NCBI RefSeq assembly: GCF_900104725.1
Contig: NZ_LT629758.1
Location: 2,542,001-2,606,000, forward strand
DNA length: 64,000 bases
Reading direction: 5' to 3'
Source of the DNA: Actinoplanes derwentensis
GTDB taxonomy: Bacteria > Actinomycetota > Actinomycetes > Mycobacteriales > Micromonosporaceae
In this document: one piece after another, positions 12,288 to 19,913 of the stretch
How the letters are laid out: every line of letters begins with the position of its first letter
How positions within the stretch are numbered: position 1 is the stretch's first letter
Notes under the pieces: generated by a model
What the model was told of the DNA's origin: nothing
The model's database searches: none
Seen by the model: the letters and a program-made list of their open reading frames with translations, nothing else
Made by a program: the position numbers and the translations under genes

Positions 12288-12443
12288 GCTTGTCGTCGTC
12301 CAGGTGCGGCATCCCGACTACCGCAACCGTGGTACCAGCGGGAGGGTGGAAGATTCACCTGATCGTCGCGGCCCGTTCGATGGCGGCTCAAGGGCGGATA
12401 CCCTCCAGAGAGGATGGCTGTCGACTCCCTCGGAAGGACTCTG

Positions 12444-13658
12444 ATGACCGTCACCGACATCCTCTCCCCCGAATGCCTCGCCGACCCGGCCGGAGTCTGG
12501 GAGGCGCTGCGCGAGACCGAGCCGCTCGCCTTCCACGAGGGTATGAACGCGTACGTGATCAGCCGCTACGCCGACGTCGAACGGGCCTTCAAGGATCCGG
12601 TCTTCACCAGTGACAACTACAGCTGGCAGTTGGAACCCGTACACGGCCGCACGATCCTGCAGATGGACGGGCGGGAACATGCGATCCACCGGCGGCTGGT
12701 CACCCCGGCTTTCCGGGGCGATCAGCTGACCAGCCGGTTCGTGCCGGTGATGCGCCGCAACGCCACCGAACTGCTGGACGCGTTCCGGCACGACGGCGAG
12801 GTCGACCTGGTCGACGCGTTCACCACCCGGTACCCGATCAACGTGATCGTCGACATGCTCGGCCTGCCGAAATCCGATCACGGCCTGTTCCACGGCTGGT
12901 ACACGGCGTTGATGGGGTTCCTGGCCAACCTGACCCAGGACCCCGAAGTGGCCGCGGCCGGGTTGCGGGCCCGCGACGAACTGGCGGACTATCTGCTGCC
13001 CCGGATCGCCGCACGTGTCGCCGACCCGGGTGACGACCTGATGTCGGTGCTGTGCACCGCCGAGATCGACGGCAACCGGATGACCGCGGCGCAGGTCAAG
13101 GCGTTCGTCAGCCTGCTCCTGCTCGCCGGCGGCGAGACCACCGACAAGGCGCTCGCGAACATGATGCTCAACCTGATCCGCAACCCGGACCAGATGGCCA
13201 AGGTCCGCGCCGACCGCACCCTGATCGGTCACGCGCTGGCCGAGACGTTGCGGCACTCACCACCCGTCCAGCTGATCATGCGGCAACCCTCCGCCGACGT
13301 GGAACTCTCCGGCGGAACCGTGCCCGCCGGATCCACCGTGATCTGCCTGATCGCCGCCGCCAACCGCGACCCCCGCCACTACACCGATCCGGACCGTTTC
13401 GACGTGACCCGCCCCGACCTGGACTTCGCCAAGGCTTACACGGCCGCCGCCAACCACACCGGTTTCGCCCTCGGCCGGCACTTCTGCGTCGGCGCGATGC
13501 TGGCCAGGACCGAGGTGGAGGTGGCCGCGAACACCCTGCTCGACGCCATGCACGACATCGAACTGTCCGACCCGCCGGTCCCGCAGGGCCTGTTCACCCG
13601 AGCCCCGACGTCGATGCGCCTGCGCTTCCGCCCGGGAAAGGCCGTCGATGTACGGTGA
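12444..13658 (+). CDS. cytochrome P450
   Basis: The 404-residue soluble bacterial P450 has the I-helix motif LAGGETTDKA near residue 230, the ExxR pair in ETLRHSP near 267, and the haem loop FALGRHFCVGAMLAR with the cysteine ligand near residue 348. The I-helix Gly-Glu-Thr-Thr variant retains the oxygen-activating threonine. The ATG at 12444 has AAGGA seven bases upstream and is preferred to the ATG at 12414. The peptidase gene follows after three bases, so the two are co-transcribed. No ferredoxin or reductase gene is adjacent, and the substrate is unknown. Confidence 0.92.
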   Translation: MTVTDILSPECLADPAGVWEALRETEPLAFHEGMNAYVISRYADVERAFKDPVFTSDNYSWQLEPVHGRTILQMDGREHAIHRRLVTPAFRGDQLTSRFVPVMRRNATELLDAFRHDGEVDLVDAFTTRYPINVIVDMLGLPKSDHGLFHGWYTALMGFLANLTQDPEVAAAGLRARDELADYLLPRIAARVADPGDDLMSVLCTAEIDGNRMTAAQVKAFVSLLLLAGGETTDKALANMMLNLIRNPDQMAKVRADRTLIGHALAETLRHSPPVQLIMRQPSADVELSGGTVPAGSTVICLIAAANRDPRHYTDPDRFDVTRPDLDFAKAYTAAANHTGFALGRHFCVGAMLARTEVEVAANTLLDAMHDIELSDPPVPQGLFTRAPTSMRLRFRPGKAVDVR

Positions 13659-13661
13659 GTC

Positions 13662-14714
13662 ATGTTCGGAGCGGCTGAGCCACGTCTTCCCACCCTGGAT
13701 CCCGAGCAGATCGGCCGGGTCCGGGAACTGCGCGCAGCGATCGACGACGTCGCGCTGGCCCGGGAGCTGAAGGACCTCCCCGCGCCCCGGGTGCGGGTGC
13801 TGACTCCGGCGAGCTGTGCCGCCTTCGACACCGACTTGCGGGAACGGTTCACCCGGGCGGGCTGGGCGGCCCGGCTCGACGAATTCCGTGCGCCGGGCGC
13901 GCCTCAGTGGGGTCCCAGCGGCCAGTACGGGGACGTACTTACGGATGTGGATCTCGACGGGGTCAACGTGGTCGCCGTCAAGGAGGGCGAGAGTGCCGAG
14001 ATGGTGCTGGTTCTCGCCCACCACGACACGGTTCCGGGCACCGGCGGCGCCGACGACAACGGCACCGGGCTCATCGGCCTGCTCGAACTCGCCCGGCTCC
14101 TGGGCGCGGCGGAGTTCCGGCGCACGGTCCTGCTCGTCGCGGTCGACCACGAGGAACTCGGTTTCCACGGTGCCCGTCACCTCGTGCGACAGTTACAAGC
14201 CGGCGGGCGTACGGTGGTCGGCGCCTACGTCTTCGAAATGCTCGGCTTCGCCAGCACCCTACCGGGCAGCCAGCACCTGCCGTCTGGGCTGAACCTGCTC
14301 TATCCCGGGCAGGTGCGCCGGATCCGGCGCAACATGCAGCGGGCGGATTTCAGTGCCGTCCTCTACCGGCAGTCCGGTCGCACCATGGCGGCGCTGTTCG
14401 CGGCGGCCCTGACCACCCTGACCGGCCCGGCCGGCGTAGTGCTGCTCCGGGCGCCCACCGACCTGCCGGTGCTCGGCCCGGTACTCGGGCGCCTGGTGCC
14501 GTTCACCCAGCACTTCGCCCGCAGCGACCACCTCCCGTTCTGGGATGCCGGCCTGCCCGCGGTCCAGATCACCGACACGGCCAACTTCCGTAACCCGCAC
14601 TACCACCAGCCCGGCGACCTACCGGACACGGTGGACATGAGCCGGGTCGCCGACGTCACCGCGGCCACCGCTTTCGCCGTGGAGACCCTGGCCCAGCGCC
14701 TCCCTCCGGACTGA
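13662..14714 (+). CDS. M28 family zinc metallopeptidase
   Basis: The 350-residue protein carries the M28 metal ligands in order: AHHDT (His120-Asp122), GADDNGTG (Asp near 132), DHEELG (Glu164/165) and the C-terminal His in NPHYHQPGDLPDTVD. Family members are aminopeptidases or cyclise or trim small peptides and amides. There is no signal peptide, so it is likely cytoplasmic. It starts three bases after the P450 stop and is probably translationally coupled, which hints at a small-molecule or peptide-modifying pair, though no other biosynthetic gene is visible. Confidence 0.88.
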   Translation: MFGAAEPRLPTLDPEQIGRVRELRAAIDDVALARELKDLPAPRVRVLTPASCAAFDTDLRERFTRAGWAARLDEFRAPGAPQWGPSGQYGDVLTDVDLDGVNVVAVKEGESAEMVLVLAHHDTVPGTGGADDNGTGLIGLLELARLLGAAEFRRTVLLVAVDHEELGFHGARHLVRQLQAGGRTVVGAYVFEMLGFASTLPGSQHLPSGLNLLYPGQVRRIRRNMQRADFSAVLYRQSGRTMAALFAAALTTLTGPAGVVLLRAPTDLPVLGPVLGRLVPFTQHFARSDHLPFWDAGLPAVQITDTANFRNPHYHQPGDLPDTVDMSRVADVTAATAFAVETLAQRLPPD

Positions 14715-14825
14715 GCCCGCCGGACGACGGCACCTCCACGTGGCCGATCGAGATCGGCCCCGACCCGGAACCGGTCAGCCGGAGAGGTGGTCCCGCATCA
14801 GGCATCGACGATATACGTTCGGTTT

Positions 14826-15524
14826 GTGGCACCTCACACACAGCAATCAACCAATGGCGGCCTCCGTGTCTTCATCTCGGCAGGCGACTGGACGGACCTG
14901 GAAACCTCCGGAACTCGGCAGGTGTTCCACCCGGGTAGTCAGCTGTGCCGCCAGGGCGACATCGGTGACTACGTCTATGTTCTGCTGGCCGGGGCCGTCA
15001 AGGTGGTCCGGAGCGAACCCGCGGGCGGCCGGGCGGTTCTGACCGTCAGGTCCGCGGGCGACGTGATCGGTGACATCGCGGCAATCGACGGTGGCCGGCG
15101 GTCGGCGTCGGCGTCGGCGTCGGTGTCGGTGTCGGTGTCGGCACTGACTGTCCTGACCTGTCGCCTGCTGCACGGGCCCGATTTCCGGCGCTTCGCGGAA
15201 CGGCGGGAGGTGGCCCTCGGTTTCGCCCGTTACGCCTACCGGCGACTGAGGAAGTCCGACAGCCAGCGCACCGAGCTGGCCGTCCTGCCCGTTCTGGAAC
15301 GAGTGGCGCGGGCACTGGTCCGTCTCTATGACGCGGCGGCGAGCGAGCCTGGCCGGAACACCATCGCCCTGCCGCAGCAGGATCTCGCGGACCTGGTCGG
15401 CGCCTCGCGCAACGCCGTCGTTCTTGCTCTGGGCGTGTTGAGGGTCGAGCGGCTCATCGAAACGGGCCGCCGATGTATCACCATCCTGGACGTTCCGGAA
15501 CTCCGTCGTCGCGCCGACGGGTGA
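14826..15524 (+). CDS. Crp/Fnr family regulator with Ser-Ala/Ser-Val repeat insert
   Basis: The product (232 residues from this start) has an N-terminal cyclic-nucleotide-binding fold (FHPGSQLCRQGDIGDYVYVLLAGAVKVV) and a C-terminal winged helix (LPQQDLADLVGASRNAVVLALGVLRVERLIET). A run of alternating Ser-Ala and Ser-Val residues, encoded by seven 6-bp repeats, sits in the cNMP fold after GDVIGDIAAIDGGRRS. GTG 14826 is preceded by TATACG at 14812, suggesting a leaderless transcript; GTG 14787 is an in-frame alternative but its GGAGAG directly abuts it. The gene lies about 100 bp before the cyclase gene, so it could sense that enzyme's product; this is inferred. Confidence 0.85.
   Translation: MAPHTQQSTNGGLRVFISAGDWTDLETSGTRQVFHPGSQLCRQGDIGDYVYVLLAGAVKVVRSEPAGGRAVLTVRSAGDVIGDIAAIDGGRRSASASASVSVSVSALTVLTCRLLHGPDFRRFAERREVALGFARYAYRRLRKSDSQRTELAVLPVLERVARALVRLYDAAASEPGRNTIALPQQDLADLVGASRNAVVLALGVLRVERLIETGRRCITILDVPELRRRADG
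15101..15142 (+). repeat. hexanucleotide repeat, 7 copies of GTCGGY, inside the Crp/Fnr gene
   Basis: GTCGGC occurs three times, GTCGGT three times, then GTCGGC once, with no gap. Copy-number change would keep the frame and alter the length of the Ser-Ala/Ser-Val run by two residues per unit. Confidence 0.9.
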
Positions 15525-15626
15525 ATGTTCCGTCACGTGTCGAGCGCCCAATGGTGGGCTGAGCGCGGGCCCCACGGCCGTCACGATGAGCTGGTCAACC
15601 AGTCACCGCTGGAAAGGCCCAGGTCG

Positions 15627-16493
15627 ATGACGTCGAGCCATGTTCCATCCCGTCCACTGCCGCCGTATCGAGCGATTCTCGCCATGGACGCCAAGGACTT
15701 CACCAAGCTTCCCGGCAGCGTCCACGAGGAGACGTCCGCCGCCATCAAGACAGTCGTCGGCAACGCGATGCGCGATGCCGGGCTTGAGGAGGATTGGTCC
15801 GCCCCGTACTTCTTCGGTGACACGGGCGACGGGTTCGCCGCCGGGCTGCCGACGCGCATCCTGCCGTCCCTCATCGACCCGTTCCCGATGCTGCTCCAGG
15901 AGAGGCTTGCGAAGTTTCGCGACGACCGCCCCGGCGAGGAGCCACTGCGGCTTCGGGTCAGCCTGCACGTCGGTCCCCTGCCGGTCGATCCGGCGGCGTC
16001 GTCGAGCACCGGCAACGGGACGGCTCGTAACGACACCCACCGGTTGCTCGACGCGGATGTGATCAAGGGGGCTCTGCGGGATGTCAGCCCGGAGATCGCA
16101 CTGGTCGCGATGATCATCTCGGATCGGGTCTACGACGATGTGGTCCGCGGGCGATACGCCGGCCTGCATCCCGACCACTTCGTCCCGGTGACGGCCCGGG
16201 TCACGGGCAAGACCCTCGATCAGTTCTCAGTGCCCTGTCGGCGCTGTTCGCCCTGGTACCGCGTCACCAGGAGAACGCAACCGAGTCACTGCACCACTAC
16301 CGTCAGGTGGCCCGGCGCTTCGGCACCGACCGGGAGGGATTCGTCGCCGCCTGGCTCGCGGCGGCGGTTGATCATGAGGCCACCGAGCGGGCGGTCGCCA
16401 CGCAGATCTGGGCGGCGAACCTCATCGCGAACCGCAAGTTCACCCGGGTCAGGTGGTCGATCCGTCTACTCGTGGCCGGTATCGCCGTCCTGA
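15627..16493 (+). CDS. class III nucleotide cyclase-like protein (Pycsar PycC type), C-terminus altered
   Basis: From ATG 15627 (GGAAAGG about ten bases upstream) the product reads as a class III cyclase domain: AILAMDAKDFT with metal ligand Asp21, FFGDTGDGFAAGLP with Asp65 or Asp68, RVSLHVGPLP, THRLLDADVIKGAL, and ISDRVYDDVVRGRYAGL. These match the cyclases of Pycsar antiphage systems, which make cCMP or cUMP to trigger a membrane effector. After about residue 195 (VTGKTLDQ) the frame is out of phase with the effector-like sequence beneath it, so the last 90 residues are probably spurious. The upstream gene is a Crp/Fnr protein. Confidence 0.7.
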   Translation: MTSSHVPSRPLPPYRAILAMDAKDFTKLPGSVHEETSAAIKTVVGNAMRDAGLEEDWSAPYFFGDTGDGFAAGLPTRILPSLIDPFPMLLQERLAKFRDDRPGEEPLRLRVSLHVGPLPVDPAASSSTGNGTARNDTHRLLDADVIKGALRDVSPEIALVAMIISDRVYDDVVRGRYAGLHPDHFVPVTARVTGKTLDQFSVPCRRCSPWYRVTRRTQPSHCTTTVRWPGASAPTGRDSSPPGSRRRLIMRPPSGRSPRRSGRRTSSRTASSPGSGGRSVYSWPVSPS

Positions 16494-16513
16494 CGCTAAC
16501 CGTCCTTTCCTGA
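16216..16513 (+). pseudogene. Pycsar-type transmembrane effector, 3' fragment
   Basis: In the frame ending at 16513 the translation from about 16216 reads SVLSALSALFALVPRHQ, then HHYRQVARRFGTDREGFVAAW, then ATQIWAANLIANRKFTRVRW, then a final membrane helix RLLVAGIAVLTLTVLS. This matches the second half of Pycsar effectors (DUF5706-like): the end of TM2, a cytoplasmic helical part with the NxxIxxRKF/RxxRW element, and the last TM. The N-terminal 60-70 residues, including TM1, are missing, and no start codon with a ribosome-binding site is present. The simplest reading is a deletion joining the cyclase 3' end to the effector middle. Confidence 0.6.
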
Positions 16514-16712
16514 GGCGGCGATGCCCCGATGCCGACCTGCCAGAATTGTCGATCCAGTTGGGATGAAAATGATGCCAGCCGCTGCAGAACAGTCTCCGAT
16601 CCCAGTCGCCGGGAACTGCCGGTGACACCGGAGGACGGACACGATCATGACGTTGTCGCTGTCTGCATCAGCGGCGACAGCGAAGCGGAAGTGTTCCATC
16701 GAGCGGCTCAGT

Positions 16713-17702
16713 GAACTGATCTCAGCAAGGAATTGAAGCCGATTCGGGATGACACGGGTGAATAGGTAGTTTCGGACGGTCCTCGAAAAAGACGTGGAGC
16801 CATCGATAGACAGGTCTTGCGACAGATCCACGTCTTCGAGAGGGCTCCACGTGCTGGCTTATCGTGCCATGGTCGACGTCCCGAGGGAACTGGTGCAGTA
16901 CGTGGCGCGGTTGCTCCATGCCGAGCGCCGCGCCCGTGGCACGCGGAAGAAGACACGTGCGCTGACCTGCTTCTACCAGGCGTTACTCGTACTCGTCTGG
17001 TTCCGTAAGCAGGAAGACCTGACACTGCTGGGCGCCGGTTTCGGGGTCTCCCGGGCGACCGCGTACCGCTACCGCGACGAGGGCATCGCGGTGCTCGCCG
17101 CCCAGGCACAGGACCTGCACACCGCTCTGAAGCGGGTCGCCGCCGACGGCTGGTCGTACGTCATCCTCGACGGCAAACTGTTCGACTGCGACCGGCTGAC
17201 CGAGACCACCCTGTCGGTCAAGGGAAAGACGATCGACGCCTGGTTCTCCGGAAAGCACCGCGACTTCGGCGCGAACATTCAGGCGATCATGCGCCCGGAC
17301 GGACTGCCGATCTGGACATCGGCGGCGATGCCGGGGCATCTGCACGACACCAGCTGCGCCCGCGACCTCGGCGTCACCGCCGCCCTGAACTGGTCCGCCG
17401 CCGAACTCGACCTGCCGGCCTTGGCCGACTCCGGCTACGAAAGCACTGGTCAGGGCATCAAAACCCCAATCAAGCAACCGGCCGACGGTAAACCCCTCGC
17501 CGTCGACAACCGCGCCTACAACCGGCTCCTACGCGGTCTGCGCTGGCAGGGCGAACGCGGCTTCGCGATCCTCGTCGGACGCTGGAAAGCCCTGCGCCGC
17601 ACCACGATAAGCCCACGCCGCACCGGCGATGTCGTCGCCGCCGCGCTGCACCTGACCCATTTCGAATACAAATACCTAACCGGATCTTGCTGAGATCAGT
17701 TC
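16713..17702 (+). mobile_element. complete IS5-family insertion sequence, 990 bp
   Basis: Terminal inverted repeats GAACTGATCTCAGCAAG (16713-16729) and its exact complement (17686-17702) bound one transposase gene. The element is flanked by direct repeats AGT at 16710-16712 and 17703-17705. A 3-bp ANN duplication fits the ISL2 group of IS5. The perfect 17-bp repeats, perfect duplication and intact gene suggest recent insertion. Confidence 0.9.
16851..17693 (+). CDS. IS5-family transposase
   Basis: The 280-residue protein has an N-terminal helix-turn-helix (LLGAGFGVSRATAYRYRDEG, residues about 60-80) and a DDE_4-type catalytic domain: VILDGKLFDCDRL supplies the first Asp and LADSGYESTGQGIKTP the second acidic region. 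GTG 16851 has GAGAGGG about six bases upstream. The stop codon lies inside the right terminal repeat. It appears intact. Confidence 0.9.
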   Translation: MLAYRAMVDVPRELVQYVARLLHAERRARGTRKKTRALTCFYQALLVLVWFRKQEDLTLLGAGFGVSRATAYRYRDEGIAVLAAQAQDLHTALKRVAADGWSYVILDGKLFDCDRLTETTLSVKGKTIDAWFSGKHRDFGANIQAIMRPDGLPIWTSAAMPGHLHDTSCARDLGVTAALNWSAAELDLPALADSGYESTGQGIKTPIKQPADGKPLAVDNRAYNRLLRGLRWQGERGFAILVGRWKALRRTTISPRRTGDVVAAALHLTHFEYKYLTGSC

Positions 17703-17992
17703 AGTGGATCGCCAAGAATGACGGATCCGTCGAGATCCAGGCCTTGCAGTGGCAACGCGTAACACATCGGCGGCAGTCCGATCAGCCGGTCTTCGAGATG
17801 CAGATCTACTTCGAACCGCAGTAGCCGGACCGGTTCACCACGGTGGCCGGGTCGGCGTGCACAACACCGGCCCGGCCGCCGGTTCGAGGTGCGCCTGCCC
17901 GCCGCCTGATCCGCGCCGGCGCTGGTCCGTAAGCAGACCGTAAGCCGTGCGAGCCTGGCGGTCACAGGCCGGCGACAGCTTGACTGGTACAC

Positions 17993-18541
17993 GTGATCCA
18001 ACGACTTCTCACCCGCCCGGCCGTCTGGGTCGTCATCGCGGCACTCGGTGTGGGCGCGCTCTACTGGTTCCAGCCGTGGCGGCTGTTCACCGACACCGTC
18101 GTGACCGACACGCTGTCGAGTCCACCCTCCTCCACACCGCGCTCCTCCGCACCGGCGGCCCCGGACGACGTCCCCACGACGGTGGTGATCGCGGAGGGCT
18201 CGTTCGTGACCCATGAGCACGACACCGATGGCGCCGCCCGGGTGGTACGCAATCCGGACGGCACCCACCAGCTGGAGTTGATCGGCCTGGACACCAGTGA
18301 CGGCCCGGATCTGCGGGTGTGGCTCTCCGACCAGCAGGTGCGCACCGGAACCGCCGGGTGGCGGGTGTTCGACGACGGCGAGTACGCCGAGCTGGGCAAA
18401 CTCAAGGGCAACCACGGCGACCAGGTCTACCGGATCGCCGCCGGCGTCGATCCCGGGGCGTTCCGCAGCGTCAGCATCTGGTGCAAACGGTTCGCGGTCT
18501 CGTTCGGAGCGGCTGAGCTGAAGACCGTCGCGTCACGCTGA
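17993..18541 (+). CDS. membrane-anchored DM13 domain protein
   Basis: The 182-residue protein has one N-terminal membrane segment (AVWVVIAALGVGALYWF), a Pro/Ser linker, and a DM13 domain from about residue 65 (FVTHEHDTDGAARVV, DLRVWLSD, and the terminal IWCKRFAVSFGAAEL with its conserved Cys). DM13 domains are thought to act in extracellular redox or electron transfer, partly through that Cys. The gene stands alone and ends in a strong hairpin. Confidence 0.85.
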   Translation: MIQRLLTRPAVWVVIAALGVGALYWFQPWRLFTDTVVTDTLSSPPSSTPRSSAPAAPDDVPTTVVIAEGSFVTHEHDTDGAARVVRNPDGTHQLELIGLDTSDGPDLRVWLSDQQVRTGTAGWRVFDDGEYAELGKLKGNHGDQVYRIAAGVDPGAFRSVSIWCKRFAVSFGAAELKTVASR

Positions 18542-18544
18542 CGC

Positions 18545-18587
18545 GCAGCAGCGTCCCCCACCCGGGCCGGGTGGGGGACGCTGCTGC
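18545..18587. terminator. perfect 19-bp hairpin, bidirectional terminator
   Basis: GCAGCAGCGTCCCCCACCC (18545-18563) pairs perfectly with 18569-18587 around a 5-base loop and is followed by TTT. It separates the convergent DM13 and sugar-binding genes. Confidence 0.88.
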
Positions 18588-18595
18588 TTTCAGAA

Positions 18596-19723
18596 TCAGA
18601 CGAGGCCGGCGGTGCGGCAGTAACTGAGGTAGTCCGCGGTGCACAGGGTCTTGGTGTCCACGTAACCGGCTTCGACGATCGACTTGATGTTGCTCAGGCT
18701 GATCGCTTTCGGCTCCAGCTTCTTGAACGGGATGTAGAGGCCGGACTCCGGGTCCTTCAGTTTGTCCGCGACGACCGGCTTCTCCTTCTTGTAGAGACCG
18801 ATCGCCAGGTCGGCCGCGGCGTCCGCCTCGGCCTTGGTGTCCTTGTACACCGTCATGCACTGGTCGCCGGCGAGGATGTTCTGCAGACCCTTGACCGTGG
18901 CGTCCTGGCCGGTGACCGGGACCTTGCCGTTGCGGCCCTTCTCCTTCAGCACGTCGATGGCCGCGTTGCCGAGACCGTCGTTGGCGGCCAGCACACCGTC
19001 GATGTTCGGGTACTGCTTGTGCATCAGCGCGAAGATCTCGCGGGCGTTGTCCTCGTCCCAGCCGGGAACGAACTGGTCCGGGCCCTTGAGCGCGGTGGCG
19101 TCGTCGAACCGGCTGTCCAGGACCGCGTCGTAGCCCTCCTTGAACAGGTAGGCGTTGTTGTCCGACTGCGAACCGTTCAGCTCGGCGATGACCGGAGTGG
19201 TGACGCCCTTGCGCCGCAGGCAGTTGAGCAGCCCGGTGGCCTGCAGTTCGCCGACCTTCTCGTTGTCGAAGCTGACGTAGTAGTCGGCGGCACCGTTGAG
19301 GGTGAGCCGGTCGTAGTCGATCACCGGCACGTTGCGGGAGTGGGCGTCCTGGATCACGGCTTTGCCGCTGGCCGCGGAGAGGTTCACGATGACCAGCACC
19401 TTGAACCCCTTGTCGAGGGCGGTCTTCGCGATCCGTTTGAACTCCTCCTCGTCACCCTCGGCGTTGAAGATCTGCGCGGGGACGCCGGCCGCGTCGAAGG
19501 CGGCCTGAAGGTACTTCGGGTCGTCGTCGACCCACCGGGTGGAACTCGTGGTGTCCGGCAGGATCACCGCGACACCGTCGGTTCCGGTCACCTTGCCGCT
19601 GCTGGTGCCCTCAGTGGCGGCGTCACTACCGGTAGCGCCTTCGGAAGCCTCGCTGTCACAGGCCGAGAGCGTGACCGACGCCAGAAGACCGACGGCGATC
19701 AGGGCGAACGAAGACTTGCGCAT
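18596..19723 (-). CDS. xylose-type sugar-binding lipoprotein (SBP family 4)
   Basis: The 375-residue protein starts MRKSSFALIAVGLLASVTLSAC, a lipoprotein signal. The mature part matches periplasmic-binding proteins of the XylF/ChvE type (GVAVILPDTTSSTRW, GKAVIQDAHSRNVPVIDYDRL, YYVSFDNEKVGELQATGL, VPVTGQDATVKGLQNILAGDQCMTVYKD). It should bind a pentose or related monosaccharide outside the membrane. The ATG at 19723 is chosen by the signal peptide; an in-frame upstream extension to 19846 is arginine-rich and unlikely. No ATPase or permease gene lies beside it, so it is an orphan receptor. Confidence 0.9.
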   Translation of the reverse strand: MRKSSFALIAVGLLASVTLSACDSEASEGATGSDAATEGTSSGKVTGTDGVAVILPDTTSSTRWVDDDPKYLQAAFDAAGVPAQIFNAEGDEEEFKRIAKTALDKGFKVLVIVNLSAASGKAVIQDAHSRNVPVIDYDRLTLNGAADYYVSFDNEKVGELQATGLLNCLRRKGVTTPVIAELNGSQSDNNAYLFKEGYDAVLDSRFDDATALKGPDQFVPGWDEDNAREIFALMHKQYPNIDGVLAANDGLGNAAIDVLKEKGRNGKVPVTGQDATVKGLQNILAGDQCMTVYKDTKAEADAAADLAIGLYKKEKPVVADKLKDPESGLYIPFKKLEPKAISLSNIKSIVEAGYVDTKTLCTADYLSYCRTAGLV

Positions 19724-19913
19724 GGGGATGGGTGTCCTCTCCGGGTGGGCCCGAGCCGCGTGAACCGCCGCGCCACAGGGGCGGGGAGGGCGATCCACCG
19801 TCGGCGAACTGCCACCGTTGGCAACTTTTCGGTAACCGTGCCGCAACAGGGCCCCGTGTGCGGACGCGCCGCATAATGATCACGGTCGCCCTGGCCTGCG
19901 TGTAACCGGCCGT

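Follow-up and report, generated by a model that had tools for sequence, protein, structure and literature searches.

A recently broken locus in Actinoplanes derwentensis points to a predicted Pycsar-like operon with a Crp/Fnr regulator and a shared cyclase tail motif

A cyclase-like gene that runs directly into part of a membrane effector gene, with a Crp/Fnr gene just upstream, raises the question of whether such a locus is a working unit or the remnant of a larger one. We addressed this question in a 64,000-nucleotide stretch of the Actinoplanes derwentensis genome (here called the window), where the gene order on the plus strand is Crp/Fnr, cyclase-like core, and PycTM fragment (Table 1). 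The cyclase-like open reading frame (ORF) spans 15525-16493 and is homologous to its relatives from about 15627 to 16223; past the junction with the effector it continues out of frame for some 90 residues, giving a product of 322 amino acids. Both frames are open across the junction, and crp and the cyclase core are uninterrupted by stop codons. A first-pass annotation had described a cyclase-like gene followed by an effector part in another frame, and its frames and coordinates proved right. The flanks (12414-14714 and 17993-19846) look ordinary: Pfam recognizes a cytochrome P450, an M28 peptidase, and a DM13-domain protein, and a periplasmic sugar-binding-like protein is called by eye alone.

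Table 1. Features of the locus, in window coordinates
Feature	Coordinates	Strand	Basis
Crp/Fnr-type regulator, first gene	14787..15524	+	Pfam cNMP_binding 8.5e-16, HTH_Crp_2 5.9e-15
(CGGCGT)n 6-bp tandem repeat in Crp gene	15096..15142	+	TRF score 64
Class III cyclase-like core, residues 1-199 of P0001	15627..16223	+	Homology to relatives
Deletion junction, cyclase frame to PycTM frame	16220..16226	+	Homology limits, locus spacing
PycTM effector, C-terminal part, in a frame other than that of the cyclase	16223..16513	+	Pfam PycTM 1.5e-9
IS5-like insertion sequence	16709..17706	+	21-bp terminal inverted repeats; transposase 16794-17693

The effector part was identified by two model collections. 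Translation of 16217-16510 matched Pfam PycTM at E = 1.5e-9 over model positions 20-107 of 107, scoring 38.6 bits against a cut-off of 27.2, and matched the PADLOC PycTM model at 1.4e-9; the fragment is 59% identical to the PycTM of one relative (L037). The 16216-16513 frame thus has the PycTM/DUF5706 match at 1.5e-9 that the annotation had predicted for it. As also predicted, the fragment lacks its beginning, including its start and first membrane helix.

The cyclase part was harder to place. Searched as a single sequence, it had no credible match in Pfam, PADLOC, or NCBIfam, and 0 of 23 cyclases matched PADLOC models at E <= 0.1. In alignment A5, the window core is 64% identical to its relative L073. 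A profile of 52 sequences (the window plus 51 relatives) was compared by hhalign with 20 PF00211 domains taken from related genomes, giving E = 7.6e-4 and a probability of 25%, against E = 0.15-0.43 for four controls. The alignment to PF00211 is collinear over 124 columns, catalytic positions included. Class III cyclases carry two metal-binding aspartates and an N-x3-R pair in the active site; Asp21 and Asp68 fall on the PF00211 metal-binding aspartates, and Asn135/Arg139 fall on the N-x3-R pair. D21, G67-D68-G69, H138-R139, and K195 are invariant in the 52 cyclase rows, N135 is nearly so, and Asp21, Asp68, Asn135, and Arg139 are all retained in the window core. Profile searches of the PDB returned the class III cyclase Ma1120 with alignment A1 (best E = 0.0076) and, with the deeper alignment A5, only 3mr7, a cyclase-annotated entry (E = 0.087). 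From these weak profile scores together with the residue matches, we classify the protein as a predicted class III cyclase with its catalytic residues, in line with the class III-like call of the first-pass annotation, to which the collinear 52-sequence profile lends support at a modest score. A match of the 322-amino-acid ORF to Ntox46 (E = 0.015) spans the junction and was dismissed as a chance hit.

To learn what an intact version looks like, we compared the locus with its relatives in two sets. For the first set, the window cyclase core was searched in 299 genomes, its own included: 121 of the 299 had some match, identity reached at least 48% at 21 places spread over 20 of the other 298 genomes, and wider stretches were fetched for 39 places. 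For the second set, the cyclase alignment was scanned over the genomes of 84,980 species, and the best 80 of 152 relatives were kept (L072-L151). Grouping at 80% identity gives 27 clusters, and the genera represented are Micromonospora, Salinispora, Plantactinospora, Pilimelia, Actinoplanes, Fodinicola, Streptomyces, Streptantibioticus, and Kitasatospora, with one more record bearing only the title Actinobacteria bacterium. The two sets overlap (L038/L078, L039/L081, and L041/L082 are the same stretches), and their counts are not additive. At the 21 close places, Crp and then the cyclase are followed by a gene 3 of about 660-790 amino acids, often with a 4-bp overlap with the cyclase, and by a gene 4 of about 210-300 amino acids, the exceptions being L044, where gene 4 lies beyond the contig end, and L052, whose genes look broken. 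Downstream genes were called in 64 loci of the second set; in 61 of these, gene 3 is followed by a gene 4 whose product has 224-351 amino acids. Genes 3 and 4 of the Streptomycetaceae correspond to those of the Micromonosporaceae by hhalign (gene 3, E = 1.5e-21 and 1.2e-16; gene 4, E = 1.4e-6 for one group and 6.9e-5 for the other). The predicted intact order is Crp/Fnr, cyclase, STAND-like protein, accessory protein, and often PycTM, and the order Crp-cyclase-downstream gene is kept in relatives, the conserved synteny that the first-pass annotation had proposed as a check.

Measured against these relatives, the window locus has lost far more than its short length suggests. Homology limits place the end of the cyclase at codon 16221-16223 and the beginning of PycTM at about 16223, within about 10 bases of the single deletion proposed near 16216. 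In 14 of 14 PycTM-bearing loci measured (5 from the first set and 9 from the second, with two stretches counted twice and hence 12 distinct; all of Micromonosporaceae type, with Streptomycetaceae loci set aside), the two points joined at 16220-16226 sit 3054-3299 bp apart. This spacing supports the joining of the cyclase 3' end to the PycTM interior by one deletion. Gone from the window are the last conserved cyclase strand, the linker, the tail motif, two whole genes, and the 5' part of PycTM, which by comparison with relatives amounts to about 56 codons and includes the first membrane helix. Whereas 180-210 bp had been expected to be missing, the actual loss is 3.05-3.30 kb and takes in the STAND-like gene and the accessory gene. 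The earlier reading was thus right in outline (decay, one deletion, synteny) and wrong in its scale and in treating Crp as an oddity.

On these comparisons, the window locus almost certainly derives from a five-gene operon and was broken recently, by one deletion of about 3.1-3.3 kb. The open frames on both sides of the junction would also suit a programmed frameshift near 16216 that makes a functional cyclase-PycTM fusion from a two-frame gene. However, the two points belong to separate genes 3054-3299 bp apart in all 14 loci measured, the first PycTM helix and the last conserved cyclase strand are absent from the window, and a homologue with the same fused junction, whose existence would have spoken for the fusion, was found at 0 of the 14 loci. 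We rejected the frameshift as highly implausible. Only slightly less remote is an assembly error in a strain whose operon is whole: the assembly is a single 10.65-Mb contig, 100% complete with 3.65% contamination, the junction is not at an insertion sequence (IS) copy, and the insertion in Crp described below is a second, independent difference.

The neighboring IS5-like element was considered as the cause of the deletion. Its 21-bp terminal inverted repeats are 95% complementary, its transposase matches NF033581 at 1.1e-28 (100.5 bits, below the curated cut-off of 140), and five further copies at 100% identity are present in the same genome, which suggests that the element was probably active lately. 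A causal role is unsupported, since some 480 bp separate the junction from the IS end at 16709 and the remaining five copies are elsewhere; the insertion is apparently an event separate from the deletion.

Several observations bear on the history of the deletion. In a tree of 52 cyclase rows, the window falls in a clade of five (99/97), though with a long branch (0.56) and an uncertain exact position, and L072 and L076 are absent from the tree. PycTM stands downstream in each of its four clade-mates (L073, L074, L075, and L081), which makes a complete operon in the ancestor most likely. L072, whose sequence ends inside the cyclase, is the nearest relative, with 84% identity to the window over the cyclase stretch that it holds; dN/dS against L072 is 0.084 for the cyclase core (155 codons) and 0.154 for crp (198 codons). 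With no interrupting stops and low dN/dS, the decay looks young. The lost genes were not found elsewhere in the same genome, where the profile search gave a distant paralogue (L155) and a weak match (L154). L155 was the only own-genome match of the STAND-like profile, and L154 was the one further weak match of the accessory profile (9.4e-7), in another operon. L155 as a moved piece of the lost operon was rejected, because this paralogue is distant, comes with an accessory gene of its own, and has a different gene upstream.

The first-pass annotation had called the Crp/Fnr gene an unusual addition and had suggested asking whether it is conserved upstream. It is: Crp lies upstream of the cyclase on the same strand in 79 of the 80 loci (the best 80 of 152 relatives; in L112, Crp is in two pieces) and in 26 of 27 cluster representatives at 80% identity, as well as at 33 of the 39 places of the looser first set. 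At these frequencies, Crp is a near-constant member and no odd addition to the operon. In the Crp alignment (79 rows; L112 and L126 have no full Crp match and were left out), the phosphate-binding cassette is kept, with G in 79/79, E or D in 79/79, and R in 78/79, which makes cyclic-nucleotide sensing by Crp plausible. The window Crp itself has a cNMP-binding domain, a phosphate-binding cassette, and a Crp-type HTH, and is accordingly classed as a predicted cyclic-nucleotide receptor. By eye, the true Crp start is probably near 14826, behind a -10-like box. Such a TA-rich box directly before the Crp start codon was seen by eye in many loci (window 14800-14830; L072-L084), and its position suggests a leaderless transcript. 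Inspection by eye of the roughly 190 bp preceding crp in the window and in 13 relatives revealed no common palindrome that could serve as a Crp operator.

In the window Crp, eight residues are inserted in frame directly behind the phosphate-binding cassette, at the (CGGCGT)n repeat. Of the 79 Crp rows, only that of the window has residues in these eight columns; the 78 others, including that of L072, lack the insertion. It adjoins the nucleotide pocket, and we read it as a second lesion. Crp and the cyclase core might nevertheless still work as a small regulatory pair whose other arm was lost: both are open, the catalytic residues are kept, and dN/dS against L072 is low (0.154 and 0.084). Against such a pair stand the missing conserved C-terminal strand of the cyclase, the roughly 90 out-of-frame residues appended in its place, and the Crp insertion seen in 1 of 79 rows, and the low ratio would mostly reflect the time before the deletion. 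We consider a working residual pair improbable. With the tail motif, the sensor, and the first effector helix gone and Crp interrupted by an insertion, the window copy cannot run the mechanism proposed below. As a broken operon copy, it is dead or nearly so and matters only as the relic that leads to the intact system.

Of the two genes lost between cyclase and effector, the first encodes a protein that we tentatively call STAND-like. Pfam nSTAND3 was detected in 5 of 23 such proteins (best 3.2e-5), 0 of 29 matched PADLOC at 1e-3, and alignment A6 gave no sequence match against the PDB. The Walker A motif is degenerate (GRR in 38/64), which leaves an ATP-driven STAND cycle uncertain. For the accessory gene, an assignment to SPFH/Band-7 was dropped, since each Pfam family found matched at most 1 of 15 members (best E = 0.0047) and the PDB matches were senseless.

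The effector is the least regular part of the operon. Among the 21 closest places of the first set, tblastn at 1e-4 gave PycTM as the next gene at five (L033, L034, L037, L038, and L039) and found none downstream at the other 16. By profile, PycTM is the next gene in nine loci of the Micromonosporaceae (L073-L081) and in ten of Streptomyces. Pfam PycTM was present in 8/8 Streptomycetaceae gene-5 products tested (2.2e-11 to 2.1e-14), these eight having been hand-picked from the two main groups among 34 candidates of 130-260 amino acids. Hydropathy indicated no membrane helix in 9 of the 34 candidates, and at least one candidate, that of L129, looks like an unrelated gene. PycTM is therefore not constant, and loci without it must use another output.

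A further feature of the intact loci lies in the part of the cyclase that the window has lost. At many loci, a Gly/Asn/Gln-rich motif closes the cyclase and is found again near the N terminus of the next gene product. The motif takes the form NxGQVAxxV in the Micromonosporaceae, NINTGTVHGGQSV in one large Streptomyces group, and NxQxxxxGxAVMGxxxxD in another Streptomyces group. We scored each pair by the best ungapped match between the last 70 cyclase residues and the first 130 partner residues, with 200 shuffles, after a filter on gene distance and length only, by which 11 of 75 loci with a next ORF were excluded. A match (reached by at most 2 of 200 shuffles) was found in 56 of 64 loci, 50 of them scoring above all 200, and in 21 of 22 cluster representatives. 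Under this 70/130-residue test it was absent from eight loci (L080, L089, L099, L106, L129, L130, L138, and L143); in some of these, we think, the motif lies outside the 70 or 130 residues or in a shifted frame.

On average, true pairs match better than exchanged ones. We sorted the loci into five motif groups; between-group mean scores were 23.8 to 36.8, with one at 44.8, a contrast that is partly by construction because the Streptomyces groups were set by the partner motif. Shuffle means were about 24-32, and within-group means were 56 to 92, except in the Micromonosporaceae (non-self 32.6 versus self 45.0). Reshuffling partners within groups is a test independent of how the groups were set: true pairs averaged 60.95 versus 57.18 (s.d. 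0.83) for reshuffled partners, and 0 of 5,000 permutations reached the mean of the true pairs. Fourfold sites were identical in 76 of 146 motif-pair cases versus a control of 0.41, a mild excess; agreement this near to control indicates a match mainly at the protein level, with some gene conversion possible.

Two other operons of the same genome touch on this pairing. L155 (5377-8628) holds a 144-amino-acid, probably helical protein, a STAND-like gene whose P-loop retains its lysine (SGKRS), and an accessory gene; the tail of the small protein matches the STAND-like N terminus (0 of 500 shuffles). With a different small protein in front and the tail still matched, the upstream gene seems exchangeable while the matched tail stays. 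L156 (2950-9999) comprises a gene that looks kinase-like by eye, a second cyclase of 258 amino acids with a glycine-rich tail, a 771-amino-acid gene overlapping the cyclase by 4 bp, and a 665-amino-acid gene; its motif match was weak (32 of 500 shuffles). Among more distant cyclases (L054, L056, L059, L060, and L065), other tails, e.g., GRDVDxS..GDQYxA, recur by eye at the partner N terminus, and these cyclases also adjoin Crp genes. The pairing may reach well beyond the loci studied.

Copies were also sought on mobile DNA. Nine stretches of viral contigs matched the search pattern, and none encodes a cyclase relative. Eleven plasmid records contain a cyclase relative, all below 60% identity, and in 6 of the 6 with a feature under the match the cyclase is annotated as a hypothetical protein. 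Together with the 0 of 23 PADLOC matches, this shows how easily the cyclase is overlooked even where PycTM is recognized. On one Streptomyces plasmid, the annotation reads Pycsar system effector family protein, Crp/Fnr, hypothetical (the cyclase), hypothetical, IS701 transposase, hypothetical: here PycTM is upstream of Crp, the STAND-like gene is split by IS701, and the copy adjoins an N-6 DNA methylase gene. Broken-looking copies recur, among them the Streptomyces plasmid copy L186 (6756-10259), with IS701 inside the STAND-like gene; L074 (3844-5967, Micromonospora arborensis), with an internal stop; and L079, L038/L078, and L103, with frame breaks. The frame-broken copies come from draft assemblies, and their breaks could be errors. 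Maintaining the system may carry a cost.

How does the intact operon relate to known systems? Pycsar consists of a cyclase and PycTM or PycTIR, according to the accessible part of PMC11224242. Like Pycsar as described there, the present loci combine a class III-like cyclase and a Pfam PycTM effector in one operon, with a cyclic-nucleotide logic; unlike that pairing of a cyclase with one receptor, the operon adds Crp, a STAND-like protein, and an accessory protein. PycTM scored over the Pfam cut-off in the window fragment, truncated as it is, and in all eight gene-5 products. As for the known PycC family, none of the 23 cyclases matched PADLOC at E <= 0.1, and we therefore filed the operon as Pycsar-like, not as a Pycsar member. 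The tail motif recalls the amyloid pairs of NLRs and effectors (BASS), in which, as far as the accessible parts of PMC7889193 and PMC8086366 describe them, a C-terminal motif matches the N terminus of an adjacent STAND-like protein in actinobacteria; the matched adjacent motif of such pairs was found here in 56/64 loci and 21/22 clusters. The effector sides in the accessible part of PMC7889193 are BELL, CHAT, and TIR domains, whereas here the effector side is a cyclase, and the word cyclase is absent from the main texts of PMC7889193, PMC8086366, and PMC12261475. The likeness is one of position and pairing, and fiber formation by the motifs is hypothetical.

Other published arrangements share single elements. 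In iSTAND2 systems, cNMP cyclases infrequently share an adaptor domain (EAD or bDLD3) with the iSTAND2 N terminus (PMC8195603, accessible part), whereas the shared part here is a short Gly/Asn/Gln-rich motif. CRP-like regulators adjoin some AP-ATPase peptide systems (PMC7159879, likewise), and the combination of Crp, cyclase, STAND-like protein, and PycTM is absent from the accessible parts of both papers. DUF2652-type cyclase-like proteins, some of them actinobacterial, have a cNMP-binding neighbor, a likeness to the cyclase-Crp pair here; unlike the present operon, they are given no STAND-like protein or PycTM in the accessible part of PMC4886424. A 2004 survey of actinobacterial cyclases makes no mention of Crp in its accessible part (PMC2447327). 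In the literature searched, mostly the accessible content of non-subscription papers, we found no published description of a Crp-cyclase-STAND-like-PycTM operon. These comparisons lead us to predict that the intact system is Pycsar-like, a variant in which Crp is near-constant and the tail motif resembles an activation switch.

These elements suggest a mechanism for the intact system. The STAND-like protein would sense an invader, and its N-terminal motif would nucleate or recruit the matching motif on the cyclase tail, a role suggested by the observed match. Class III catalysis requires dimers; cyclases clustered in this way would pair and make a cyclic nucleotide. This nucleotide would activate PycTM, with harm to the membrane, and the same nucleotide would bind Crp, whose binding residues are kept, and adjust transcription. 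Precedents for two of these steps, in the accessible parts of the sources, are the joint-assembly signaling proposed for BELL/NLR amyloid pairs (PMC7889193) and the membrane damage caused by PycTM in Pycsar (PMC11224242). We hold the mechanism as sketched to be evenly balanced between right and wrong. The specific claim that the STAND-like sensor templates an amyloid-type motif on the cyclase tail to form active dimers, with the nucleotide feeding both PycTM and Crp, is more tentative and falls somewhat below that balance. The explanation as a whole, a relic of a five-gene operon together with this mechanism for its intact form, is in our judgment fairly likely.

Because PycTM is present and the parts are kin to known conflict systems, the operon is probably antiviral. 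It could instead serve developmental or stress signaling of filamentous actinobacteria, with PycTM as a cyclic-nucleotide-gated membrane protein. The best 80 of 152 relatives are all actinobacterial (as were the query and patterns), the genera of the kept loci are presumably mostly filamentous, Crp suggests gene regulation, no copy was found in the viral contigs searched, and genes 2 and 3 have no PADLOC match. Yet PycTM is a known abortive-infection effector (PMC11224242, accessible part), the distribution is patchy (at >=48% identity, 20 of the other 298 relatives have a match, at 21 places), the plasmid copy broken by IS701 adjoins a DNA methylase gene, and several other copies look broken. 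We regard the signaling role as unlikely, though with more weight than any other alternative considered here, and favor antiviral defense.

How Pycsar cyclases are switched on is, to our knowledge, an open question. If the shared tail motif activates the cyclase, the trigger would be one short, deletable tail. If motif templating is true, prion-like signaling would be joined to cyclic-nucleotide immunity, with a transcription branch built in. The operon would give one cyclic nucleotide two receptors, one killing and one regulating, a new wiring for immunity of this kind.
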